32,219 nt of DNA from an uncultured beta proteobacterium (lineage in GTDB: Bacteria; Pseudomonadota; Gammaproteobacteria; Burkholderiales; Casimicrobiaceae), in the NCBI GenBank assembly GCA_903912485.1, contig CAIWHR010000404.1, positions 1 through 32,219 on the forward strand, given 5' to 3'. The notes below the pieces were generated by a model. That model was given only the letters and a program-made list of their open reading frames with translations, had not been told where the DNA came from and ran no database searches. Shown one piece after another: positions 3,641 to 31,300 of the stretch. The stretch's first letter is position 1. Every line of letters starts with the position of its first letter. A program made the position numbers and the translations under genes.

Positions 3641-3678
3641 ACTATGGCGGCTTCTTCAAGTATTTTGTGAGGAGCGCC

Positions 3679-5058
3679 ATGGGGCTGAGTCTGGAAGCGC
3701 GGTTCGCGAGGTACTGTGACACGATGGTGGCGACGATGATGCACGCGGATCGGGAGCAGCCCGGGCGCTGGTATCTGAAGGGGTTGGTGCTGCCGGGCGG
3801 ACGCAAGAGCGTGGAGCCGATGGCGGCGCGGGTGCAACCGGAGCGGGTGCGATCGGCGCACCAGTCGATGCATCACCTGGTGGCCGAGGCGCAGTGGAGC
3901 GACGAGGCGATGTTGGCGGCGGTGGCGAAGGAAGTGCTGCCCAAGTTGATGCAGGAGGACGCGCCGGTGTTTTGGATTTTGGACGACACGGGCTTCCCGA
4001 AGAAGGGTAAGCACTCGGTGGGGGTGGCGCATCAGGATTGCGGGCAGACGGGCAAGCAGGACAACTGCCGGGTGGCGGTGACGCTGTCGCTTGCCACGCA
4101 CGAAGGAAGTCTTCCGGTGGGCTTTCGTATGTATCTGCCGCGCGAATGGACTGACGATGAGGCGCGTTGCCGCAAGGCCGGGGTGCCGAGCAAGGTCGGC
4201 TTTGCGACCAAGCCGCAATTGGCCTGGCAGCAGATCGAGGCGGCATTGGCGGCCGGCTACCCACGCGGCACGGTGCTGGCGGACGCAGCCTATGGTGACG
4301 AGACTGCTTGGCGCGAGCAGCTGGCCGAACGGGGATTGACGTACGCGGTCGGCGTGCGGCCGGCGACGACGGTCTGGTGGGGCGAGCATCAACCTGCCCC
4401 CGAGCCGATGCGCGAGCGCCGCGCCGGGCGAACGCGCCACCGATTGCGCCGGGATGCGCAGCATCAGCCGATTTCGGTGGCGGACCTGGCGCGCGCACTG
4501 CCGGCGCGCAGTTGGCGCACCGTGACCTGGCGGCAAGGGGTATCGGCGCCCCTGAGCTCGCGCTTCGCGCGGGTGCGCGTGCGCGCGGCGCACCGCGATC
4601 GGCCGCGCGCCGAGGAATGGCTGCTCATCGAATGGGCGCGCGATGCCGATGAGCCCGCGCACTACTGGTTCAGCAACCTCCCCGCGAATGTGCGTTGGCA
4701 GCCTATGGTTGACACCGCGATGGGCCGTTGGCGCATCGAGCGCGACTACCTCGAACTCAAACAGGAACTCGGCCTGGGCCACTTCGAGGGACGCAACTGG
4801 AGAGGGTTCCATCATCATGCCAGTCTGTGCATCGCGGCCTTCGGCTTCCTGATGCTGGAGCGCCTGTCCGGCGCTAAAGAAAACTCCGCTCGATTCAAAA
4901 CACCTGCCGTACCCGCCGCCTTCCGCCCGCGCGGGGCTGGCGCCGATGCAGCGCCACATACCCTGGTCGATCGCGACCTGCCGCTTCCGCTTGGCGCGCG
5001 TCGTCGCCCGAGCCCTGCGGCAGTGCCCGTGCTGCGGGCGGACCCGGGCACGTTGTGA
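3679..5058 (+). CDS. IS701-family DDE transposase, C-terminus frameshifted
   Basis: The frame encodes 459 residues; ATG 3679 follows an AGGAG Shine-Dalgarno. The DDE core is visible: WILDDTGFPKKGKHS (Asp 102/103), KQDNCRVAVTLSLA, VLADAAYGD (Asp202), and the glutamate-bearing RWRIERDYLELKQELGLGH block at 351-369, then the HHHASL segment. The last 45 or so residues are not family-like. In the adjacent frame from 4940 to the TAA at 5063-5065 the sequence reads RHIPWSIATCRFRLARVV and then RQCPCCGR, the normal IS701 C-terminus. Removing one G from the GGGG run at 4933-4936 restores a 461-codon frame. Catalytic residues are intact, but the Cys-rich tail is lost unless the extra G is an error. Confidence 0.85.
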   Translation: MGLSLEARFARYCDTMVATMMHADREQPGRWYLKGLVLPGGRKSVEPMAARVQPERVRSAHQSMHHLVAEAQWSDEAMLAAVAKEVLPKLMQEDAPVFWILDDTGFPKKGKHSVGVAHQDCGQTGKQDNCRVAVTLSLATHEGSLPVGFRMYLPREWTDDEARCRKAGVPSKVGFATKPQLAWQQIEAALAAGYPRGTVLADAAYGDETAWREQLAERGLTYAVGVRPATTVWWGEHQPAPEPMRERRAGRTRHRLRRDAQHQPISVADLARALPARSWRTVTWRQGVSAPLSSRFARVRVRAAHRDRPRAEEWLLIEWARDADEPAHYWFSNLPANVRWQPMVDTAMGRWRIERDYLELKQELGLGHFEGRNWRGFHHHASLCIAAFGFLMLERLSGAKENSARFKTPAVPAAFRPRGAGADAAPHTLVDRDLPLPLGARRRPSPAAVPVLRADPGTL

Positions 5059-20022: not shown

Positions 20023-20793
20023 CTATTTTTCGAGTTTCTTCTGGGCTGCGTCGAGCAGCGACTTGACCCTGCCCTCGGCGACTTCCTGTTTGAGGCTTGC
20101 AGCGAAGGCCGTCTTCAACTCGTTGCACTTCGACTTCTTGGAAAAGCCGACGTACATCCCGAAGGAGTCGATCTCCTTGGGCATGAATTCGACCTTCGAC
20201 CCGATGCCGAGCCGTTTCACTTCGAGCCTGCCGGGGTAGAGGCCGATGATCAGGTAGTCGGCGCTCTTGTTCAGCAGCGCCTCGAACGCCTTGTCGACCC
20301 CCTGCGCGCGCGCCACCGTGAGGTTCTTCGCCATGAAGCCGTCGAACGCGGTGCCGAAACTCTCGCCGACGTTGGTCACGCCCTTGCGCCCCTTGAGATC
20401 GTCCCATTGTGCGTAGGCGAACCCGTCGCCCTTGCGCGCGACAACCGACACCGGATCCATCATGAACGCCGGCTCGACGTAATCGAGCCATTTCGCGCGC
20501 TCGTCGTTCCTGTAGATGCCGAAGATCACGTCGGCGTCGCCGCGCGCGACGGCCGCCTGGGCCTTCTCCCACGAACCGTAGTCTTTCGAGGTGACCGTCT
20601 TCACGCCCAGTTTTCTGGCGATCCCGGCGACGAGTTCGGGTGCCGCGCCGTCGATCTTGCCGTCCGCCGCCCAGGCGACGGGCATGTAGGTCGTGTGGCC
20701 GGTGATCACCAGCGCCGTGCAGGCCGGCTGCGCGGCGGCAAGCGCCGGGAACGACAGGAGCGCCGCGAAAGCTGCCAGGAATTTCGTCTTCAT
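20023..20793 (-). CDS. Family-3 solute-binding protein (amino-acid type), orphan
   Basis: The 256-residue product has a signal peptide ending near ALAAAQ. The SBP_bac_3 fold follows: MPVAWAADGKIDGAAPELVAGIARKLG, ARGDADVIFGIYRNDERAKWLDYVEPAF and GRKGVTNVGESFG. Members capture polar amino acids in the periplasm for ABC import. No permease or ATPase gene adjoins, so it is an orphan component or a sensor. The ATG is preceded by GAGAGAATCTCC-type sequence with a moderate SD. The substrate is unknown. Confidence 0.85.
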   Translation of the reverse strand: MKTKFLAAFAALLSFPALAAAQPACTALVITGHTTYMPVAWAADGKIDGAAPELVAGIARKLGVKTVTSKDYGSWEKAQAAVARGDADVIFGIYRNDERAKWLDYVEPAFMMDPVSVVARKGDGFAYAQWDDLKGRKGVTNVGESFGTAFDGFMAKNLTVARAQGVDKAFEALLNKSADYLIIGLYPGRLEVKRLGIGSKVEFMPKEIDSFGMYVGFSKKSKCNELKTAFAASLKQEVAEGRVKSLLDAAQKKLEK

Positions 20794-20899: not shown

Positions 20900-21568
20900 C
20901 TAGCGGGGCTGCGCGTTGACCTCCGCTTCCCACTTCTGCAGCAGGCGGCGGCGTTCCGCAGCCGAGCCGTACCTGGCGAAATCGTAGTTGATCAGCTTCA
21001 CGTCCGAGAGCCTGGGCATCAGCGGCGACAGCGGCGTGGCCTTGTTCGAAGGGATCGGGTACGCCTTGTTTTCGGCACCCAGCGCCTGCGCCTCCGGCGT
21101 CAGCGCCCAGTCATAGAACTTCCTTGCGTTATCGAGATTTCTCGCCCCCTTGATCAGACTCATCGAGCCGATCTCATAGCCAGTGCCTTCGCAGGGCGCC
21201 ACCGAGACCACCGGGAATCCGGCGACTTTCTCCGCCACCGCGTCATGGATGAATGCGACCCCCACGGCGGTCTCGGCGCGTCCGACCGCCTTCACCGGGC
21301 CGGCTCCGGATTTCGTGTACTGGTTGACGTTGCCGTTCAGCGCCTTGAGATACTTGAATGCCTCGTCTTCGCCCATCAACTGCACGACCGTGGCGATCGC
21401 TACGTACGCGGTGCCGGATGAGTTTGGATTCGCGATCTGCACCTCGCCCTTGTATTCGGGCTTGATCAGATCGCGCCAGCACTTGGGCACGGACAGGTTT
21501 CTCCTGGCGAGCAGCTCCGGGTTGTAGCCGAATCCGAGCGGACCGGCGTAGACGCCGACCGTCTTGTA
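20900..21568 (-). pseudogene. N-terminally truncated Fe(III)-type ABC solute-binding protein (FbpA/AfuA-like)
   Basis: From about 21568 downwards the minus strand encodes roughly 220 residues of a binding protein: VGVYAGPLGFGYNPELLARR, CWRDLIKPEYKGEVQIANPNSSGTAY, GAGPVKAVGRAETAVGVAFIHDA, VAPCEGTGYEIGSMSLIKGA, and a C-terminus ending LQKWEAEVNAQPR. FbpA-like proteins are about 330-345 aa, so the signal peptide and first 110 or so residues are missing. The open frame further upstream is Arg/Pro/Ser-rich and unrelated. No start codon with an SD precedes the homologous part. It looks like the remnant of a deletion or rearrangement whose break lies near 21565-21585. Confidence 0.75.
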
Positions 21569-21689
21569 GCCAGTTCTAGTACGCCGGGCCGATCGCTCAA
21601 AGGAGGTCGGTGTCGGCGGCGAGATGGGCGCCGAATGGGGACGCGCGTTGCGGGCGTGCGCATTGGGATGCGGTAAGATTGGACCGCCC

Positions 21690-23453
21690 ATGTCGATCGT
21701 GCACCGCTTTCTTGCCCTCCTTGCGCTCGCTGCGTGCGCGGGGCACGGAGCCGGCATCGCCTCCGCGCAGCCCGCGCCGGCCGCGCTGCCTGAAGGGTCG
21801 TCCGGATGGGTCGACAAGGCGCCGGTCGCGACCCGCGACTTCATGGTCGCAGCGGCGAATCCGCTGGCGGTCGACGCCGGCTATTTCATCCTCGCGCAGG
21901 GCGGCTCGGCGGTCGACGCGGCGATTGCCGTGCAGCTCGTGCTGGGGCTGGTGGAGCCGCAGAGTTCGGGCCTCGGCGGCGGTGCGTTCATGCTGATCCA
22001 CGAGGCGAAGACCGCCCGCCTGACCGTGCTCGACGGGCGCGAGACGGCGCCTGCCGCGGCGCGGCCCGACCGCTTCCTCGGTGGCGACGGCAGGCCGCTG
22101 GGCTTTCGCGACGCGGTGATCGGCGGGCGTTCGGTCGGCGTGCCCGGTACCGTCGCGTTGCTGGCCGAAGCGCATCGGCGACACGGCCGGCTGACGTGGG
22201 CGGAACTCTTCGCTCCCGCGATCGCGCTCGCCGAGGGAGGCTTCGCCGTGTCGCCGCGCCTGCACCGTGCACTGGCCCGCGAAGGCGCGATGCTGCAGCC
22301 CCGGGCGCAGGCGTATTTCTTTACCGCCGACGGCGCTCCGCTCAGCGCCGGTGCGCGACTCGCCAATCCCGCCTACGGCGCCACGCTGCGCACGCTGGCG
22401 GCACACGGCCCGCAGCCGTTCTACCGCGGCGCGATCGCGCGCGACATCGTGACGACGGTGAGCACGGCTCCGGTGAACCGCGGCGACCTGACGCTCGCCG
22501 ATCTCGCGCGCTATCGCGTCGTGGTTCGCGCGCCCGTCTGCGGCGGCTACCGCGGCTATCGCGTCTGCGGTGTGCCGCCCCCTTCGTCCGGAGGCATCGC
22601 CGTGCTCGAGACGCTCGGCCTTCTCGAGCGGCGCGACTTCGCCGCGCTGCCGCCGGGCTCGGTCGCGGCCACGCACGTCTTCGCGGAGGCAGGGCGGCTT
22701 GCGTACGCCGATCGCGCGTTCGTCGCCGATCCATCCTTCGTCCCGGCACCGATGTGGCTGCTCGATCCGGATTACCTTGCGCGCCGCGCAGCTCAGATCG
22801 CGGACGACCGCAGCATCGGCGTGGCCCTGCCCGGCGTGCCGCCGGCGCAGCGCGGCGCGCGCAAGCTTGCGATCGACGAGGCGCCCGCGCTGGAACTGCC
22901 GGCGACGTCGCACATCTCGATCGTCGATCGCGACGGCAACGCCGTTTCGATGACGACCTCGATCGAGGACGGGTTCGGCAGCCGCCTGATGACCGCGTCC
23001 GGCTTCCTGCTCAACAACGAATTGACCGACTTCTCGCTGGCGCCCGTCGAGAGTGCCAGGCCGGCGGCCAACCGCGTCGAGGGCGGCAAGCGCCCGCGTT
23101 CGTCGATGGCCCCGACGATCGTGTACGACCCGCGCGGGCGCATGTTCATGGTCGTCGGTGCGCCGGGCGGTGCGGCGATCATCAACTACGTCACCAAGAC
23201 CATCGTCGGCGTCATCGACTGGAAACTCGACCCGCAGGCCGCGATCGCCCTGCCGAATGTCGGCAGCCGCAACGGGCCGACGGAGCTCGAGGCCGGCACG
23301 CCGGCGGTGGCGCTGGAGTCCGGGCTGCGTGCGCTCGGACACGCCGTGACAGTGATGGACCACCCGAGCGGCATCCAGGCGATCGTCCGGACCGAGGGCG
23401 GCTGGATCGGCGGCGCCGATCCGCGGCGCGAGGGCACGGTGCGGGGCGACTGA
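21690..23453 (+). CDS. ggt: Gamma-glutamyltransferase (glutathione hydrolase)
   Basis: The 587-residue proenzyme has a signal peptide; both a lipobox-like Leu-Ala-Ala-Cys (Cys16) and a type-I site near ASAQ are possible. Family marks are DAGYFILAQGGSAVDAAIA (62-80), GLGGGAF, DGRETAP (Arg117), SVGVPGTV, the autocleavage site with nucleophile Thr406 (TSHISIVDRDGNAVSMTTS), NNELTDFS, RPRSSMAPTIV and the GAPGGA loop. It autocleaves to two subunits and removes the gamma-glutamyl group from glutathione and related compounds in the periplasm. Start ATG 21690 has a weak SD; TAAGAT just upstream could be a -10. It heads a run of five same-strand genes and precedes the phytochelatin-synthase-like gene by 44 bp, which points to thiol-peptide breakdown. 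Confidence 0.93.
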   Translation: MSIVHRFLALLALAACAGHGAGIASAQPAPAALPEGSSGWVDKAPVATRDFMVAAANPLAVDAGYFILAQGGSAVDAAIAVQLVLGLVEPQSSGLGGGAFMLIHEAKTARLTVLDGRETAPAAARPDRFLGGDGRPLGFRDAVIGGRSVGVPGTVALLAEAHRRHGRLTWAELFAPAIALAEGGFAVSPRLHRALAREGAMLQPRAQAYFFTADGAPLSAGARLANPAYGATLRTLAAHGPQPFYRGAIARDIVTTVSTAPVNRGDLTLADLARYRVVVRAPVCGGYRGYRVCGVPPPSSGGIAVLETLGLLERRDFAALPPGSVAATHVFAEAGRLAYADRAFVADPSFVPAPMWLLDPDYLARRAAQIADDRSIGVALPGVPPAQRGARKLAIDEAPALELPATSHISIVDRDGNAVSMTTSIEDGFGSRLMTASGFLLNNELTDFSLAPVESARPAANRVEGGKRPRSSMAPTIVYDPRGRMFMVVGAPGGAAIINYVTKTIVGVIDWKLDPQAAIALPNVGSRNGPTELEAGTPAVALESGLRALGHAVTVMDHPSGIQAIVRTEGGWIGGADPRREGTVRGD

Positions 23454-23497
23454 GCCGCGCCGACGCATCGACCGCGCCGCAACCCGAGGAGAAACCG

Positions 23498-24238
23498 TTG
23501 TCCCGTTCAGCCGTGTCCGCATTCGTTCGAAAGATCTGCCTCGTCGTCGTCCTGTGCCTGGGTCAGCCGGGCGCTTCGCACGCGTACCAGGGGGAACTGC
23601 CGCCGCCGGCGAACCTGCCGACACTGACCAGCGAGGCGGGCCAGCAACGCCTGCTGGAAACGGCGTACAGGCGTGCCTACTGGCCCTTGAGCGCGCAGTT
23701 CGAGACGCAGAAGAGCCAGGCCTATTGCTCCGTCGCTTCCTCGGTCATCGTTCTCAATGCGCTGGGCGTCGACCGTCCGGCAACGTCGCTGTACCCGGAC
23801 TATCCCTATTTCACGCAGCAGGATTTCTTCGTCAGGGTCGACCCGCGCGTCGCCAGTCCGGCGGGCGTCGAGCGCGAGGGAATGACTCTGGAGCAGCTCG
23901 CGCAGGTGCTGAAGGGGTTCGGCGTCGATGTCGCCACCTTTCCCGCAGCCGCAATGACCCTCGAGCAGTTCCGGAACCTGCTGCAGGAATCGCTGCAACA
24001 GGCGTCGAGCTTCCTGCTGATGAACTACGATCGCAGGGTGATCGGCGAGATCGGCGGCGGGCACTGGTCTCCGCTGGCGGCCTATCACCCCGCGAGCGAC
24101 AGCGTCCTCATCCTCGATGTCGCGCGCTACAAATACCCGCCGGTCTGGGCGCCGCTCAAGGATCTGTGGGCGGCAGGAAAGTCTCCGGATTCGGTCAGCG
24201 GAACCTCACGCGGATTGCTGATCGTCCGGCGCCCTTGA
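23498..24238 (+). CDS. Phytochelatin synthase-like cysteine peptidase, exported
   Basis: The 246-residue product uses TTG 23498, preceded by GAGGAG six bases upstream. An export signal (core KICLVVVLCLG, cleavage near GASHA) is followed by the bacterial phytochelatin-synthase domain: WPLSAQFETQKSQAYCSVAS with Cys77, GGHWSPLAAYHP with His189 and VLILDVARYKYPPVW with Asp207, the Cys-His-Asp triad of the papain-like family. Bacterial members of this single-domain type mainly hydrolyse glutathione to gamma-glutamylcysteine and glycine. It lies between ggt and a binding-protein gene, so both enzymes would act on glutathione in the periplasm (inference). The triad is complete. Confidence 0.88.
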   Translation: MSRSAVSAFVRKICLVVVLCLGQPGASHAYQGELPPPANLPTLTSEAGQQRLLETAYRRAYWPLSAQFETQKSQAYCSVASSVIVLNALGVDRPATSLYPDYPYFTQQDFFVRVDPRVASPAGVEREGMTLEQLAQVLKGFGVDVATFPAAAMTLEQFRNLLQESLQQASSFLLMNYDRRVIGEIGGGHWSPLAAYHPASDSVLILDVARYKYPPVWAPLKDLWAAGKSPDSVSGTSRGLLIVRRP

Positions 24239-24273
24239 GCGCGCACCGCCCGGCAGTACCTATTCGAACCTCG

Positions 24274-25125
24274 ATGACCCGTCGCCATTCCATCACTCGC
24301 CGCGACTGCCTGATCGCACTGATGCTCCTTCCGTTGGCTGGCTCGGCGCAGTCCGCGCGGACTCCCGCCGACCCCGGGCAGCTGGTCGAATTGGCCCCCG
24401 AGATCCGACGCATCATGGAGCGCGGCGCGCTGATCGCAGGCATGCAGGGCTCGGACATCGCGCCGTATGCCTACCTCAAGGACGGCAGGTTCCAGGGCGT
24501 CGACGTCGAGTTGGCGCAGGGATTGGCCGATGAGTTGCAGGTCGAACTGCGGATCGATCGCAGCGCGACCAGCTACAACCAGGTGATCGACACGGTGGCG
24601 CGCGGCCAGGTCGACATCGGCGTGTCGGCGCTGTCGCGGACATTCCAGCGCGCGCGCCGCGTCAGCTTCTCGGAGCCCTACGTCACCCTGCGCCATGCCA
24701 TGGCGCTCAACCGCGCGAACCTCGCCGAGCTGACCAGGGACAAGGATGCGCGCGCGGTGATCAAGGTCTTTCCTGGCTCGGTCGGCGTCCTCGCCGACTC
24801 CTCTTACGTCGAGTTCGCGCACCGGAATTTTCCCGCCGCCAGGATCGTCGAGTTCCGGCTCTGGGCGGAGGCGGTCGAAGCCACCAGAAAAGGCACGGTG
24901 GACGCGCTCTACAACGACGAGTTCGAGATTCGGTACCTGATGAAATCCGACGCGGCCAATCCGCTGTTCTTCAGGACGGTCTTCTTCAGCGATCTGGTCG
25001 ACACGCTGGCGATGGCACTGCCCCACGGCAGCCGCCAGCTCCTGAGCTTCGCGAACCTCTACCTGTCGGGACGGCCCAGAGCTCCCACGGTCGAAATGCT
25101 GCTGCAACGGAGCCTCAAGCGATGA
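24274..25125 (+). CDS. Family-3 solute-binding protein (amino-acid type)
   Basis: The 283-residue product begins MTRRHSITRRDCLIALMLLP, a possible Tat or Sec signal, with the binding domain from about residue 50: LIAGMQGSDIAPYAYLKDGRFQGVDVELAQGLADEL, ARGQVDIGVSALSRTFQRARRVSFSEPYV and ALYNDEFEIRYL. This fold captures amino acids or similar small ligands. ATG 24274 lacks a clear SD. Its TGA overlaps the ATG of the DAACS gene by four bases (ATGA), so the two are coupled. The pairing of a binding protein with a secondary carrier, rather than ABC subunits, is unusual. Confidence 0.85.
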   Translation: MTRRHSITRRDCLIALMLLPLAGSAQSARTPADPGQLVELAPEIRRIMERGALIAGMQGSDIAPYAYLKDGRFQGVDVELAQGLADELQVELRIDRSATSYNQVIDTVARGQVDIGVSALSRTFQRARRVSFSEPYVTLRHAMALNRANLAELTRDKDARAVIKVFPGSVGVLADSSYVEFAHRNFPAARIVEFRLWAEAVEATRKGTVDALYNDEFEIRYLMKSDAANPLFFRTVFFSDLVDTLAMALPHGSRQLLSFANLYLSGRPRAPTVEMLLQRSLKR

Positions 25126-26438
25126 GTCGCTTCCTGGACGTCTGGTGCGCCAAGTCCGGCAGCATCCCGGTCGTCCTGCTCAGCGCTGCCGCAGGCGTGG
25201 CGCTCGCCCTCTGGAATCCCGGCTACGCCAAAGCCCTGTCTTTCCTGGTCGACGTCTACATCAGCCTCCTGATGATGATCGCGGTGCCGTTCATGGTGTC
25301 GGCGCTGATCTTCAATCTGAGCGAGTTGATGCACTCGAAGGACTCGTCCAAGGTCTTCGGGCTCGCCGTGCGCCTGATCGTCCTGGCCAAGGTCGGCGTG
25401 GTGCTGCTGGCCATCGCCATCGCCGTCGTCGTCGGACCCGGACGCGACCTCTCGGGCACCACCCTCGACACGCTCGGCCAACTGGTCGGCGAGGATCTCA
25501 ACGGCGGGGACAGGATCGAGATGGCGCTGCTCGGTCCGCTGCAGCCGACGGATTCGATGAGCGTCAAGGACGTGATGCTCAGCATCGTGCCCAACAACAT
25601 CTTCGCCGCGCTCAGCCGCGGTGAAACGCTCAAGGTGCTGATCTTTTCGTTGCTGTTCGGACTCGTGGTCGGGCGTTTGCCGCAGGTATATGCCCAACCG
25701 TTGAACGACGCGTTGCGCGGGGTCTACCAGGGCTGCCTGAAGCTGACGATCTGGTTCAACTACCTGTTGCCCGTGGTCCTGACGGCCATGGTCGCCAACC
25801 TGGTTGCGACCAGCGGCGTCGGCCCCTTGCGCGGCATGCTCGGCTTTCTCGTCGCGCTGGGCGGGGGCTGCCTGTTCATCGTCGGGATGTCGCTGACGCT
25901 GATCCGCTGGGTCAGCGGCGCGTCCTGGAGCCGGGTGCTGAGCAGCCAGCGCGAGTCGTACGTGATGGCGGTGGCCACGCGCAGCAGTCCGGCCTGCATG
26001 CCGCTGATGATCGAAGGCCTGGCAAGGCAACTGCGATTGCCGGCCCCTCGGGTCGAGCTGATGGTTCCGCTGGGCGTTTCGTTGCTGCGACTGGCACCCG
26101 TGCTCTACTACGCGACGGCCGTGCTGTTCGTGGCGCAGATGTTCGGTCGCGAACTCGCCATCGCCGAATACGTCATCATCGCGCTCGGTGCGGTTCTTGC
26201 GTCGTTCGCGGCCACCGGCTTGGCCGGCGTGGCCGGGATGGCCCTGATCGGCGTGATCTGCTCGTACGTCGGGCTGCCGTTCGGAGCATTGCTCGTCCTG
26301 TTCGTGACCATCGAGCCGGTGACGGAGACCTTCGGCACGTTGTCCAATGTCGCCGCCGTCAACGCCTTCGCCGCGCTGGCGTGCCGGGGAGAGACAGCGG
26401 TCGAGGCCGCCGCGGGCACGTCGGGCGCCGGCGCGTGA
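25122..26438 (+). CDS. DAACS-family dicarboxylate/amino-acid:cation symporter, motif-divergent
   Basis: The 438-residue product has the glutamate/aspartate transporter fold: TM segments from residue 13, the hairpin-1 motif ATRSSPACMP (normally RSSSGTLP or similar), and hairpin-2 region GLAGVAGMALIGVICSYVGLP. It departs from the family where ions and substrate bind. The NMDGT position reads LRLAP. In TM8 the usual pattern Asp-x3-Asp-x2-Arg-Thr-x2-Asn-x3-Asp becomes Glu-x3-Glu-x2-Gly-Thr-x2-Asn-x3-Val. The arginine that holds the substrate side-chain carboxylate is therefore Gly and the Na1 Asp is Val (alignment by eye to GltPh). Different coupling or substrate is inferred. It is coupled to the upstream binding protein. 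Confidence 0.82.
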   Translation: MSRFLDVWCAKSGSIPVVLLSAAAGVALALWNPGYAKALSFLVDVYISLLMMIAVPFMVSALIFNLSELMHSKDSSKVFGLAVRLIVLAKVGVVLLAIAIAVVVGPGRDLSGTTLDTLGQLVGEDLNGGDRIEMALLGPLQPTDSMSVKDVMLSIVPNNIFAALSRGETLKVLIFSLLFGLVVGRLPQVYAQPLNDALRGVYQGCLKLTIWFNYLLPVVLTAMVANLVATSGVGPLRGMLGFLVALGGGCLFIVGMSLTLIRWVSGASWSRVLSSQRESYVMAVATRSSPACMPLMIEGLARQLRLPAPRVELMVPLGVSLLRLAPVLYYATAVLFVAQMFGRELAIAEYVIIALGAVLASFAATGLAGVAGMALIGVICSYVGLPFGALLVLFVTIEPVTETFGTLSNVAAVNAFAALACRGETAVEAAAGTSGAGA

Positions 26439-26481
26439 CCCGCCGCGCCACAGCGAGCCGCGCCCGATCGTGGCCGATCCC

Positions 26482-27180
26482 ATGAAAGTCATCCGCTGTG
26501 CCCGACTCGACGTGCCCGTGGATCTGGTCGCGTTGAAGGCGGACGTCGCGAAGCTGCCCGACCGCTGGAGCCCGCACTTCCAGAAGGCTCATCACGATGG
26601 CGGCTGGACGGTGCTTCCGCTCCGATCCCCCGTTGGAGACATCGACGAAGCGCTGCCGTTCGCACTGGGCAGCAGGAAGGCGGAGTACCGCGGAACGCCG
26701 CTGCTCGCGCAGTGCCCGGCAGTCGCGGGCTTCCTCGATGCGCTCGGCTGTCCGGTGCTGTCGGCGCGCCTTCTCAACCTCAATCGCGGCGCGGCAATCA
26801 GGCAGCATCGCGATGCCGAGCTCGCTTTCGAGAACGGCGAGGCTCGCCTTCACCTGCCGTTGTTCACCAACCCGGACGTCGAGTTCGTCATCGACGACGA
26901 GCGCGTGGTGATGGAGCCCGGCAGCTGCTGGTACATCAATGCCAACCTCATGCACCGGGTTGCCAATCGGGGCGACGCCGACCGCATCCATCTGGTCGTG
27001 GATTGCGTCGTCGACGACTGGCTCCGGCAGCGGTTTGCCGGCGCCGAGGTCTCGTACTCGGTGGTCCGGCGCGATCCGCTGGAGGTGCGGCAGATGATCG
27101 AGCTGCTGCGCGCCATGAACACGGCGACTGCGCGCACCCTCATCGCGCGCCTCGAAGCCGAGCAGTCCGACGCCGGGTAG
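26482..27180 (+). CDS. Aspartyl/asparaginyl beta-hydroxylase-type 2OG-Fe(II) oxygenase
   Basis: The 232-residue product has the double-stranded beta-helix with the iron triad: RQHRDAEL (His109, Asp111) and NLMHRVANRG (His158), then Arg168 in DRIHLVVDC, the likely 2-oxoglutarate anchor. Other marks are ARLHLPLFTNPDVEFVIDDE and PGSCWYINANLMH. Members hydroxylate Asp/Asn in proteins or free amino acids such as proline. The start is ATG 26482; GTG 26470 is an in-frame alternative and no SD is obvious. It follows the symporter by 43 bp on the same strand and may act on what the upstream genes import (inference). Confidence 0.85.
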   Translation: MKVIRCARLDVPVDLVALKADVAKLPDRWSPHFQKAHHDGGWTVLPLRSPVGDIDEALPFALGSRKAEYRGTPLLAQCPAVAGFLDALGCPVLSARLLNLNRGAAIRQHRDAELAFENGEARLHLPLFTNPDVEFVIDDERVVMEPGSCWYINANLMHRVANRGDADRIHLVVDCVVDDWLRQRFAGAEVSYSVVRRDPLEVRQMIELLRAMNTATARTLIARLEAEQSDAG

Positions 27181-27198
27181 GCGCCCCGCCGGCGGCGC
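27181..27198. terminator. GC-rich palindrome between convergent genes
   Basis: The 29-bp gap between the convergent stops at 27180 and 27210 contains GCGCC pairing with GGCGC around the palindrome CCGCCGGCGG. It could form a stem but has no T-tract, so its terminator role is only possible. Confidence 0.3.
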
Positions 27199-27209
27199 GC
27201 GGCCGGGAT

Positions 27210-27713
27210 CTAGGGCCGCAGCCAGTTCAGCATGTGCGGGTAAGCCGGCACGCCGTGATCCGCGGCGAGGCGGGGCTCGCAGGCCAGTCCGAAATACTGC
27301 AGCATCGGCACGCCGACGTAGCGGCCGACGGAAAAATTCTCCATCAGGCTCGCGGCGCCTCCCTTGTACCCGTCGGGATGGAAGAGAACCTCCAGCGGCA
27401 GGCCGATCCTGACCGCCGCGGCGTACGACCACGCGAGGGCCATCATCTCGAATCCGGGATCGGGATTGACGATCGGGACAGGCTGCTGCCGCTCCTCGCC
27501 GGTGAGGCCCGCGAGGTGGCCGCCCTCGTGCAGGAGATCCCCCGGGTATTTGAGCCTGGACGAATCCACGCGCAATCCGCCGCGGATCACCAGTATGCCG
27601 GGCAGGAACGCGTCGGCGGGGACCTCGCCCCACTCGATCCGGAGTCCGATTTCCTCGAGAAACGCCGCGATCGGGGAAACGAACCGTTGCGCGTCGGTGG
27701 GCGTTGCGGGCAT
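27210..27713 (-). CDS. HExxH-motif protein, putative metalloprotease-like
   Basis: From ATG 27713 the product is 167 residues. It carries LLHEGGHLAGL (His62, Glu63, His66), the HExxH zinc signature. The flanks include LVIRGGLRVDSSRLKYPGDL and FEMMALAWSYAAAVRIGLP. There is no signal peptide. I do not recognise a named family, so zinc binding is inferred from the motif only. The open frame upstream to 27794 could add 27 residues; no SD decides. It is convergent with the oxygenase gene and divergent from the DUF6916-like gene. Confidence 0.65.
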   Translation of the reverse strand: MPATPTDAQRFVSPIAAFLEEIGLRIEWGEVPADAFLPGILVIRGGLRVDSSRLKYPGDLLHEGGHLAGLTGEERQQPVPIVNPDPGFEMMALAWSYAAAVRIGLPLEVLFHPDGYKGGAASLMENFSVGRYVGVPMLQYFGLACEPRLAADHGVPAYPHMLNWLRP

Positions 27714-28825: not shown

Positions 28826-29350
28826 CTAGTTCCGGGACGGAAAGATTCCCTCCAGCGCGATGCTGAAGCTGATCACCAGGTAAGGCTGGATGTTGTCGTG
28901 CGGCTGGCTGCCGCCGGAAAGGCCGATCGTCTGCGCATGCAACGCCGAGCCGTCGGACGTGGGACGGTACATCGCCGTCTGGTTGCTGCTGCTGGCCGCC
29001 AGGAAGTTGCCGTTCGGCGTGCCGAGGGATCCCGACGCATCGGTCGCCGACGCCAGGTGATTGTGCTGCGGCATCTCGGTGCCGAGCAGCGTGTGGCTCT
29101 CCTGGCCCGAGACCTCACCCAAGGTGCGGTTGCCCAGGCCCGGCCCCTGCCCCTGGTGGTTCCCCACGCGGCCGCGAAGATCGGGCAGCGTGAACGTCTG
29201 CACGCCGTCGCCGCCGAAGGTGGTGCCGAGCAGCGCGAAGAGCGCCGTGTTCTGCGCGATCGACAGGATCTGTCCGTCGCAGATGGCATAGCCTCGCGGA
29301 GCGAAGTTGAACCCTGCCATGATGACCTGGCCGAGAAATGGTTCTGCCAT
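28826..29350 (-). CDS. Phage tail collar-domain protein (microcystin-dependent-protein-like), copy A
   Basis: The 174-residue product opens with the tail-collar domain: FLGQVIMAGFNFAPRGYAIC, CDGQILSIAQNTALFALLGT, FGGDGVQTFTLPDLRGRV and HQGQGPGL, then EMPQHNHL. A Ser/Asn-rich middle and a conserved tail QPYLVISFSIALEGIFPSRN follow. This is the pattern of MdpB-like proteins, found in bacteria without phage. AGGAG precedes the ATG by eight bases. It lies 25 bp downstream of copy B, from which it differs at about 34 of 174 positions. No signal peptide is present; how it reaches the surface, if it does, is unknown. Confidence 0.9.
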   Translation of the reverse strand: MAEPFLGQVIMAGFNFAPRGYAICDGQILSIAQNTALFALLGTTFGGDGVQTFTLPDLRGRVGNHQGQGPGLGNRTLGEVSGQESHTLLGTEMPQHNHLASATDASGSLGTPNGNFLAASSSNQTAMYRPTSDGSALHAQTIGLSGGSQPHDNIQPYLVISFSIALEGIFPSRN

Positions 29351-29375
29351 GCTGAGTGCTCCTGTTCGAGTCCGG

Positions 29376-29900
29376 TCAGTTGCGCGACGGGAAAATGCCC
29401 ACCATCGCGATGCAGAAGTTGATCACCAGGTAAGGCTGCATGTTGTTGTGCGGCTGGCTGCCGCCGGAAAGGCCGATCGTCTGCGGACTCAGCGCCGAAC
29501 CGTCTGACGCAGGACGGTACATCGCCGTCTGGTTGCTGCTGCTGGCCGCCAGGAAGTTGCCGTTCGGCGTGCCCAGGGCACCCCCCGCGTTGCTCGCCGC
29601 TGCCAGGTGGTTGTGCTGTGGCATCTCGCTGCTGATCAGCGTGTGGTTCTCCTGGCCCGAGGCTTCGCCCATGACCCTGCTGGTCAGGCCCGGCCCCTGT
29701 CCCTGGTGGATCGCCACGCGGCCGCGCAGATCGGGCAGCCCGAAGGTCACGCGCCCGTCGCCGCCGAAAGTGGTGCCGAGCAGCGAGAAGAGCGCCGTGT
29801 TCTGCGCGATCGACAGGAGCTGGCCGTCGCAGGTGGCGTAGCCGCGCGGAGCGAAGTTGAAGCCGGCCTGGATGATCTGCCCGATGAACGGTTCCGCCAT
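29376..29900 (-). CDS. Phage tail collar-domain protein (microcystin-dependent-protein-like), copy B
   Basis: The 174-residue paralogue of the adjacent gene has the same domain order: FIGQIIQAGFNFAPRGYATC, LSIAQNTALFSLLGTTFGGD, LPDLRGRVAIHQGQGPGL, EMPQHNHLAAASNAGG, and SGGSQPHNNMQPYLVINF. About 140 of 174 positions agree with copy A, and stretches of DNA are identical, so the pair arose by a recent tandem duplication. AGGAG precedes the ATG by eight bases. Differences cluster in the central loops and last strand, as expected for ligand-facing parts (inference). Confidence 0.9.
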   Translation of the reverse strand: MAEPFIGQIIQAGFNFAPRGYATCDGQLLSIAQNTALFSLLGTTFGGDGRVTFGLPDLRGRVAIHQGQGPGLTSRVMGEASGQENHTLISSEMPQHNHLAAASNAGGALGTPNGNFLAASSSNQTAMYRPASDGSALSPQTIGLSGGSQPHNNMQPYLVINFCIAMVGIFPSRN

Positions 29901-30049: not shown

Positions 30050-31300
30050 CTAGGCGGTCATGTACGAGGTAGTCCAGCCACGCTGCTTCGGCAATGCATC
30101 CGCGAGTCGCACGACCGCCGAAGCCGGGGTCAGCCCGGTCAGCGACTCTTCGCCGCCCGCACCGATGCGGCGCAGGAAAAGCGGAGCGCTGAGCTCGTTG
30201 GTGCGGGTGTCCATCGCCATCGCGCCACGCGCGCCGCTGAACCCCGTCCGGCGCAGGCTGTCGGCCAACGAGCGAGCGCCACCGGGCGCCGCATCCCGAA
30301 CCATGCGCGCGGTCTCGTGGCCGAGCATGGCGAACTGATCCGGCGCCCGGCGGAAGCGGTCGGTGAACGACGCGACAAACGCCCGGTTAGCGGCGACCGG
30401 AAGCTCCGGCGACCACGATGCGACGCTGGTCAGTTCGACGCCGGAGGCTTCGTCGGCCGTCACCATCGGTCCTGCCACGACGAGACGGCTCCGGCTCCCC
30501 GCAATCGACGCCCAGGACGCAAAGAATTCCCTCGCATCGGCGCCGGTGTAGTAACCGGCTACGACATCCGCGCCGCTTCGAGCCAGCGCGTGCGCCGCAG
30601 CGCCGGCGTCGATTGCATCGGTCGGGCCATCGCTCACCACGGAGAGCACGACCGTGCCGCCCGCAGCCTCGAAACCTGCGCGAAACGCCGGCAGCATGTC
30701 GAAGCCGCTTTCGTAGTGCGAGCAGGCAAGCGCGCAGCGGCGACCGCCCTGCTCCGCCGCCCAGCGACCCGATGCGTAAGCCGCGCGCGTGAGCTCGAGC
30801 GACGAGTACACGAACGACGGAGACACGGCATCGCTGCGGACCACGCGTTCGCCGGCATTGGCCACCATCAGCGGTATGCCGGCGGCCTCGAGGTCGCTGC
30901 GCATCCACAGCGCCGAGCGGGCGCCCATCATCGCCACCACGACGTCGGTGTCGCGGCGGGCGGCCTGACCGCGGGCAAAAGCCATCGCGCGACTGACTCC
31001 GCCGCCGATGTCGTGCACCTGCGCAGTCACCTGCCCTGCCGCCGCGGCTTCCAGGCCAAGCGCAAAACCGTCGCTGAATGCCGAAGCGGCGGCCGAGGCG
31101 CCGTCGAACTGCGAACTGGGCAGCAGCACCGAGACGCGAACGGCGGCACGCGCGCCGGCGAGCATCGTGGCAGGAGCGGCCGCCGGCGCGGCGCCACCGA
31201 AGCCGAACGCCATCGGCGGAACCGCGACGCCCGCGGTCGCGAGGCCGATGGCCTTGAGTACGGCGCGGCGGCCGTGATGGATTGAAGTCACTTTAGGCAT
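30050..31300 (-). CDS. Tat-exported periplasmic binding protein-like protein (Leu/Ile/Val type)
   Basis: The 416-residue product begins with twin arginines (GRRAVLKAIGLATAG, Arg 11-12), a Tat signal. The rest resembles the type-1 periplasmic-binding fold of branched-chain amino-acid receptors: VRVSVLLPSSQFDGASAAAS, DVVVAMMGARSALWM, IPLMVANAGERVV, GRWAAEQGGRRCALACSHYESG, ADVVAGYYTGADAREFF and FVASFTDRFRRAPDQFAML. There is no permease or ATPase gene nearby. It lies 24 bp downstream of the collagen-like gene and 149 bp upstream of the tail-collar pair, all on one strand, so it probably belongs to that group. The start is uncertain; no good SD was found. Confidence 0.75.
   Translation of the reverse strand: MPKVTSIHHGRRAVLKAIGLATAGVAVPPMAFGFGGAAPAAAPATMLAGARAAVRVSVLLPSSQFDGASAAASAFSDGFALGLEAAAAGQVTAQVHDIGGGVSRAMAFARGQAARRDTDVVVAMMGARSALWMRSDLEAAGIPLMVANAGERVVRSDAVSPSFVYSSLELTRAAYASGRWAAEQGGRRCALACSHYESGFDMLPAFRAGFEAAGGTVVLSVVSDGPTDAIDAGAAAHALARSGADVVAGYYTGADAREFFASWASIAGSRSRLVVAGPMVTADEASGVELTSVASWSPELPVAANRAFVASFTDRFRRAPDQFAMLGHETARMVRDAAPGGARSLADSLRRTGFSGARGAMAMDTRTNELSAPLFLRRIGAGGEESLTGLTPASAVVRLADALPKQRGWTTSYMTA

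Follow-up and report, generated by a model that had tools for sequence, protein, structure and literature searches.

A conserved gene pair of a binding protein and an SLC1-family carrier beside two putative exported glutathione-cleaving enzymes in an uncultured beta proteobacterium

The cluster and its five genes

The stretch analysed here (the window) is a contig of 32,219 nucleotides, taken whole, from an uncultured beta proteobacterium of the Casimicrobiaceae (assembly GCA_903912485.1, contig CAIWHR010000404.1). A Pfam profile scan identified five adjacent genes on its plus strand that encode, in order, a gamma-glutamyltranspeptidase (GGT), a phytochelatin-synthase-like (PCS) hydrolase, an amino-acid substrate-binding protein (SBP) of the SBP_bac_3 type, an SDF/DAACS carrier of the SLC1 family and a protein of the Asp/Asn-hydroxylase family of 2-oxoglutarate (2OG) oxygenases. 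A preliminary description of this DNA, made from the sequence alone, had named the same genes and proposed an operon for the breakdown and uptake of periplasmic glutathione; the identities were confirmed by Pfam and TIGR profile matches (Table 1). The genes are spaced by 44, 35, -4 and 43 bp, in agreement with the single strand and gaps of no more than 44 bp reported there, and the negative value is an ATGA overlap between the SBP and carrier genes. Judged from this spacing, a single transcript over the five genes is likely. What the description missed is the carrier's membership of an unusual SLC1 clade that is linked to SBPs.

Table 1 Features of the five-gene cluster, in positions of the window
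Feature	Coordinates	Strand	Basis
Gamma-glutamyltranspeptidase (GGT), ATG start, putative exported precursor	21690..23453	+	PF01019 E 4.6e-152; TIGR00066 400 bits, cut-off 358; PDB alignments
Phytochelatin-synthase-like (PCS) hydrolase, TTG start after GAGGAG	23498..24238	+	PF05023 E 2.7e-61; Alr0975 (6tho, 2btw) 2e-53 to 3e-53
Amino-acid SBP (SBP_bac_3)	24274..25125	+	PF00497 E 1e-17
ATGA overlap, SBP stop/carrier start	25122..25125	+	Sequence
SLC1/DAACS-family carrier, SBP-linked clade	25122..26438	+	PF00375 E 4.5e-58, 197.6 bits, cut-off 27.9
Asp/Asn beta-hydroxylase-family 2OG oxygenase; alternative start GTG 26470	26482..27180	+	PF05118 E 1.4e-18, 67.7 bits, cut-off 22.6

The binding protein and carrier pair

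Contigs from 84,980 species were scanned with a three-row carrier alignment, which returned 116 relatives, and the best 80 of the 116 were taken as loci for comparison. An SBP gene lay directly upstream of the carrier gene, on the same strand, in 79 of the 80 loci, among them the fragment L149; in the remaining locus, L144, the sequence begins at the end of a contig. With start codons assigned by script, the spacing of the related pairs had a median of 23 bp, and 11 of 79 had the same -4 overlap as the window. A search of 398 genomes of the phylum added seven genomes with a carrier at E ≤ 1e-35; an SBP gene (32-40% identity) adjoined the carrier in six of the seven wide loci, the seventh being cut at the contig start. 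Among 300 genomes sampled from the order, three carriers of the clade, the window's included, scored above 500 bits, and the best score in any other genome was 175. All three had an SBP gene alongside, in contrast to 1 of 27 generic DAACS loci (27 DAACS matches with 1.5 kb flanks), and in that lone case the SBP was 26% identical and lay downstream of the carrier. An earlier generic set of 29 loci (L004-L032) contained the same single case, L010 and L191 being the same gene.

Across 79 pairs, the window included, SBP distances correlated with carrier distances (r 0.92; 0 of 2000 permutations as high), which indicates that the two have travelled together. The loci belong to many Pseudomonadota families in 78 of 80 cases; the other two are metagenome-assembled genome (MAG) records labelled Chlorobium and Akkermansia, possibly mis-binned. 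A single-protein scan of the same contig set with the window carrier gave no match, the best carrier match outside the window in a set of 60 related genomes had 30% identity, and a plasmid search returned four carrier records. The coupling of SBP and carrier proposed in the preliminary description was upheld. The two genes form a conserved unit, a conclusion that is well supported, and their products probably work as partners. Two loci (L077:3506-8043 and L078:6763-9720) hold more than one SBP-like gene, the second recognized by eye, near one or two carriers of the clade. Some clade carriers may accept ligand from more than one SBP.

The SBP itself also matches PF10613, below the cut-off. Its structure model (pLDDT 81.6) matched amino-acid SBPs, with cysteine- and cystine-binding proteins further down the list. 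With the window counted, Arg126 was kept in 79 of 79 aligned SBPs and Asp215 in 78 of 79; these are the positions of alpha-amino-acid binders and are in keeping with an alpha-amino acid as the ligand. At the SBP N-terminus (window 24274-24350) a twin-arginine-like TRRDCL precedes the hydrophobic part, and the SBPs of L075 and L076 begin in a similar way.

The AlphaFold model of the carrier (pLDDT 88.1) found 9bgz as its best Foldseek match (E 7.1e-15), and also GltPh and ASCT2, placing the protein in the SLC1/DAACS fold. A tree was built by a quick search from 76 of 177 aligned rows picked for spread, with long branches flagged (GEN_L009 among others). In it, the SBP-linked carriers and their tandem paralogues were split from all 24 generic DAACS with an SH-aLRT of 100%. 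The sister of the window carrier was L080, the Chlorobium MAG record, followed by Sulfuricella and Rhodocyclaceae MAG records.

Residues were then counted in 87 SBP-linked first carriers (D1), 65 second, tandem-paralogue carriers (D2) and 24 ordinary (generic) DAACS rows, with the window excluded and the short D2 fragments L091 and L118 removed; GltPh numbering was mapped through alignments and the residues named in PMC12668577. At position 323, the Met position of the NMDGT motif where ordinary members have Met or Leu, Arg was present in 87 of 87 D1 carriers, and D2 carriers had Arg (60/65) or Lys (5/65), neither of which occurred in the 24 generic rows. The equivalent of N310 was Asn in 1 of 87 D1 and 1 of 65 D2 carriers compared to 23 of 24 generic rows, and that of D312 was Asp in none of the D1 or D2 carriers compared to 21 of 24. 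The window carrier reads L322-R323-L324 in the motif and has V413 at the D405 equivalent, so that it lacks the residues of a GltPh-type Na+ site. This loss of Na+-holding residues argues against GltPh-like Na+ coupling. On balance, the SBP-linked carriers would work independently of Na+, and the invariant Arg may take the place of the ion.

The Arg equivalent to GltPh R397, which decides between acidic and neutral amino acids (PMC12668577, as far as its accessible text goes), was retained in 84 of 87 D1, 61 of 65 D2 and 24 of 24 generic carriers. The window carrier has Gly405 at this position and so lacks the mark of an acidic-amino-acid carrier. It also has Asn409, a residue found in just 8 of 87 D1 relatives. 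Its terminal branch measured 0.72 against a median of 0.32, and that of its sister L080, which keeps the Arg, measured 0.66.

In most relatives the pair is part of a larger cassette. The counts for it are lower bounds, since flanks of about 8 kb on either side were available for only 58 of the 80 loci. The pair is followed by a second carrier (D2) in at least 64 of the 80, and a racemase gene is present in at least 58, in 57 of which it starts immediately after the first carrier. Markers of a type VI secretion system (T6SS) were found within at least 63 of the 80 loci (L080-L159), and TssK, VgrG and ClpV occurred together in 53; the TssK, VgrG and ClpB/ClpV-like queries were confirmed by Pfam. 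This proximity suggests amino-acid uptake during competition or after the lysis of neighbours. All ten racemases tested (L082:9242-9946 and nine others) exceeded the NCBIfam cut-off for cysteate racemase (CuyB), with 211-233 bits against 190; the same ten also passed a general amino-acid racemase model, and the cysteate racemase model may be broad. Cysteate, a sulfonated amino acid, is a possible substrate of the cassette racemases.

Other settings were also seen. A plasmid of Gemmobacter aquarius (L174) carries the order SBP, carrier, racemase, carrier, and the 11 kb viewed contain no T6SS gene. Among the nearest kin of the window, the pair of L080 (2450-9781) lies between an NHLP C39-peptidase ATP-binding cassette (ABC) bacteriocin exporter pair and a Nif11-like precursor of a ribosomally synthesized and post-translationally modified peptide (RiPP), that of L081 adjoins a phosphopantetheinyl transferase gene, and the Rhodocyclaceae MAG locus L084 (1-12610) has SBP, carrier and racemase genes flanked by a nonribosomal peptide synthetase (NRPS) stretch of 1990 residues, with condensation, adenylation and peptidyl carrier protein domains, and a thioesterase.

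Glutathione-cleaving enzymes and the proposed role of the cluster

In addition to its PF01019 and TIGR00066 matches, the GGT has the N-terminal Thr of the small subunit expected of the family; alignments place this catalytic residue at Thr406. The PCS-like protein aligns with Alr0975 at the triad Cys77, His189 and Asp207, as expected for its family. No further copy of either gene was found in the window genome. The export signals that the preliminary description assigned to GGT and PCS were also seen by us: judged by eye, the N-termini of both proteins and of the SBP are hydrophobic and signal-like. Its proposal that the two enzymes open two different bonds of glutathione agrees with their families and intact active sites, and they are predicted to do so. 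The products that Alr0975 forms from glutathione in vitro, in high yield, are gamma-Glu-Cys and glycine (PMC12065762, accessible text). The fifth gene product has the HxD motif at 109-111 (H109, D111) and His158 expected of the PF05118 family, matches Cupin_2 slightly above its cut-off and aligns with the L-proline cis-4-hydroxylase 4p7w (5.8e-6); it is the cluster member least firmly linked to the others.

The explanation that we favour overall combines a binding-protein-dependent transporter with glutathione salvage, and we give it an even chance of being right. On comparative grounds, the SBP and the carrier would be two parts of one secondary transporter built on the SLC1 elevator fold, in which the SBP catches a periplasmic alpha-amino acid and passes it to the carrier. 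The energy could come from H+, from exchange or, in an uncoupled carrier, from supply by the SBP and use in the cytoplasm. Periplasmic glutathione would derive from the cell's own leakage or from lysed neighbours, and PCS would take Gly off it to leave gamma-Glu-Cys. Gamma-Glu-Cys is a known GGT substrate, and GGT would cut it to Glu and Cys; acting in series, the two enzymes would reduce glutathione to its three constituent amino acids with no need of a Cys-Gly dipeptidase. Since the window carrier has lost the Arg for acidic side chains that nearly all of its relatives keep, its substrate is probably one of the neutral products, namely Cys, cystine or Gly. The hydroxylase may modify the imported amino acid or may be a bystander. 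That the operon serves glutathione salvage is a view in which our confidence is slightly short of even.

A number of results weigh against this explanation. No fused form of SBP and carrier was found in the 80 loci, and further binding-protein genes lie nearby on the minus strand (20026-20793, 20903-21844 and 30053-31300), which makes an SBP beside a carrier less striking here when taken alone. A scan of 21300-27400 for sigma-70-like promoters found none, and terminator-like sites in the same interval were no more numerous than in shuffled sequence. PF05023 proteins are rare, with matches in 2 of 60 related genomes, 16 of 369 genomes of the class and 12 of 398 of the phylum, the window genome being one in each count. 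When 32 PCS stretches from other loci than the window were searched by tblastn (flanks reaching 1.5 kb at most, 12 also taken wide; some overlapping or cut by contig ends, and L047 under the family cut-off), no match to GGT, SBP, carrier or hydroxylase was obtained. Neither PCS, the SBP-carrier pair nor the hydroxylase stood alongside GGT in the GGT loci of 12 relatives, although a weak SBP-like match lies at a distance of 3.7 kb in one of these loci (L232), and none of the 80 SBP-carrier loci had GGT, PCS or hydroxylase matches in the sequence compared. As the five-gene set was not found elsewhere, a joint function of GGT and PCS with the SBP-carrier pair has a single arrangement, in a single draft genome, as its basis. 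The equivalents of Asp398 and Asp402 in the window carrier are both Glu, and its loss of Arg could be decay rather than a new specificity. The earlier reading of the cluster as an operon thus stood in part: gene identities, predicted signals, active sites and SBP-carrier coupling held up, and the composition as a conserved operon did not. A conserved salvage operon with the order GGT-PCS-DAACS was rejected because that order was found in none of the PCS stretches, GGT loci and SBP-carrier loci searched, an outcome that the preliminary description itself had listed as refuting its proposal.

It is possible, though rather unlikely, that only the SBP-carrier pair is a real unit and that the other three genes, for GGT, PCS and the hydroxylase, are independent and share a strand by chance; GGT would then be resident and its neighbours recent arrivals, with no pathway in common. 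The absence of these partners from the relatives' GGT loci and from the SBP-carrier loci favours independence, and GGT appears to be vertically inherited: matches at E ≤ 1e-100 occur in 24 of the 60 related genomes, its own included, and the closest among the others is in a genome of the same genus, at 65% identity, which also supports the binning of the window contig. These results make GGT the resident gene, whose four partners either arrived in this lineage or disappeared from others. PCS and carrier were not found in three same-genus genomes, all of them drafts, and the operon may be a recent assembly. However, independence leaves two signal-bearing enzymes for one tripeptide 44 bp apart, followed by an uptake pair whose site is shifted towards neutral substrates. 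A role of PCS in making periplasmic metal-binding phytochelatins, with GGT recycling gamma-glutamyl peptides and the carrier unrelated or a supplier of cysteine, seems improbable to a marked degree. The intact triad of the PF05023 protein would allow it, and the PCS of the cyanobacterium Geitlerinema produces phytochelatins under cadmium (PMC7411734, accessible text), but no metal-resistance family occurs among the Pfam-scanned neighbours (14 proteins, 4 and 10, which are only part of the window's genes), and Alr0975, the nearest solved relative, yields gamma-Glu-Cys and glycine (PMC12065762).

Two further alternatives concern the transporter itself. The SBP could be a sensor or a soluble scavenger that is co-regulated with the carrier and does not dock on it, as for the DctB binding protein of Bacillus subtilis, which lies beside DctP and is only co-regulated with it. 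This would fit the lack of fusions and the usual service of SBP_bac_3 proteins to ABC importers or to sensors such as BvgS, yet neither a sensor kinase nor an ABC permease or ATPase is encoded in the five genes or the 14 scanned neighbours. Moreover, the pairing spans many Pseudomonadota families and T6SS, NRPS, RiPP-like and plasmid contexts, which a single regulatory circuit would not explain, and we consider the idea improbable. The window carrier could also be a decaying copy that has lost transport along with Arg405 and through the two Asp-to-Glu changes. The Gly at a nearly invariant position, the changed Asp398 and Asp402 and the longish branch are what decay would leave, but the open frame, the confident model, the retained Arg323 and the presence of Asn409 oppose it, as does the similarly long branch of the sister L080, which keeps its Arg; decay has little probability in our estimate.

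We further propose, tentatively and as something rather more unlikely than likely, that the favoured transporter represents a further class of SBP-dependent secondary transporter on the glutamate-transporter fold, freed from Na+ by the Arg in the ion motif and placed beside weapons or exported hydrolases (T6SS, NRPS and Nif11/NHLP RiPP-like loci; GGT and PCS in the window) for amino acids that neighbours or glutathione release. In its usual form the cassette, with its racemase, would take up short acidic ones such as aspartate and cysteate of either hand, and the copy in the window would have switched to a neutral product of glutathione.

The contig belongs to a draft genome of 5.27 Mb in 644 contigs (completeness 96.13, contamination 4.92), in which glutathione synthetase domain matches are present. 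The GC content is 65-74% across the cluster and 57-71% in the rest of the contig, which is little informative, and PADLOC gave no match to the five proteins. Elsewhere in the window lie an open DDE_5 transposase gene (3667-5055, plus strand) and a tandem pair of genes for phage-tail-collar-domain proteins (28829-29900, minus strand), the first matching PF07484 and the second alike by eye. A glutaminase gene (PF04960; 15396-16541, minus strand), 5 kb from the cluster, encodes an N-terminus that looks exported or lipoprotein-like by eye, and the enzyme is another possibly periplasmic releaser of glutamate. The SBP_bac_6-type gene at 20903-21844 overlaps the GGT start; its profile match begins at position 42, and, apparently without a normal N-terminus, it looks like a remnant.

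Comparison with known systems

The enzymes of the window share families, active-site residues and expected reactions with Alr0975/NsPCS and with bacterial GGT. We know of no case in which a PCS of the Alr0975/NsPCS type and a GGT are gene neighbours, and no conserved PCS-GGT neighbourhood was found among the 32 PCS stretches and 12 GGT loci. Six PCS records came from the plasmid search, and the PCS gene of a Salipiger plasmid adjoins genes for a c-type cytochrome, a multicopper oxidase and a GMC oxidoreductase, not GGT. In series, PCS and GGT would dismantle glutathione outside the cytoplasm without a dipeptidase.

The cassette of the relatives has a published counterpart in the T6SS-b cluster of Paraburkholderia phymatum, where Bphy_5989-5992 show the identical order of amino-acid ABC component, symporter, racemase and second symporter (PMC8356804). 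The same cluster occurs in other Burkholderiales, in one Janthinobacterium without the racemase (PMC8356804). In its accessible text that study reads the carriers as two sodium:dicarboxylate symporters, maybe for dicarboxylate sensing, and proposes no single SBP-carrier transporter. Unlike the window, the P. phymatum cassette includes no GGT or PCS gene in the text available.

The window carrier shares PF00375 and its fold with the SLC1/DAACS proteins GltPh, GltTk, EAATs and ASCTs, but its clade differs from them in the invariant Arg that replaces the NMDGT motif, in the SBP partner and in forming a branch of its own. Ancestral and extant uncoupled glutamate transporters are, like the clade, SLC1 proteins without the Na+/H+ signature that are often encoded near amino-acid enzymes (PMC12668577). 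These are from Firmicutes, however, and in the accessible text of that article no SBP is discussed ('binding protein' and 'periplasmic' were not found) and the Arg trait is not mentioned. That work deals with the loss of ion coupling in SLC1 proteins, a question for which the replacement of the Na+ motif by an invariant Arg is relevant.

Known binding-protein systems were compared as candidate identities. An amino-acid ABC importer was rejected, as no permease or ATPase is encoded in the five genes or the 14 scanned neighbours, and so were TRAP and TTT transporters, since the carrier matches only PF00375 and the SBP PF00497. TAXI-GltS was rejected because the Pfam families differ. A literature search, which did not cover preprints or most subscription papers, returned no account of SBP-dependent SLC1 transport, and a word search of the accessible text of PMC12344293 found no mention of DAACS, SLC1 or GltPh.

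According to Jaques et al. 2025 (PMC12344293), no secondary transporters other than TRAP and TT were known to work with soluble SBPs until TAXI-GltS was proposed. TAXI-GltS of Bordetella pertussis (BP0403 and GltS) is the nearest published parallel to the pair in the window, being likewise an amino-acid SBP translationally coupled to a presumed elevator carrier outside TRAP/TTT. It differs in its TAXI-family SBP and GltS carrier and in the existence of fused forms, whereas the window pairs SBP_bac_3 with SLC1/DAACS and no fusion was found. The pair would thus be an SBP-linked elevator carrier in a family other than TAXI-GltS. The same authors raise the possibility that elevator carriers are a requirement for SBP dependence, which further classes would permit one to test (PMC12344293). 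An SLC1 clade linked to SBPs would open this question to testing, because the family is of the elevator type and many of its structures have been solved.

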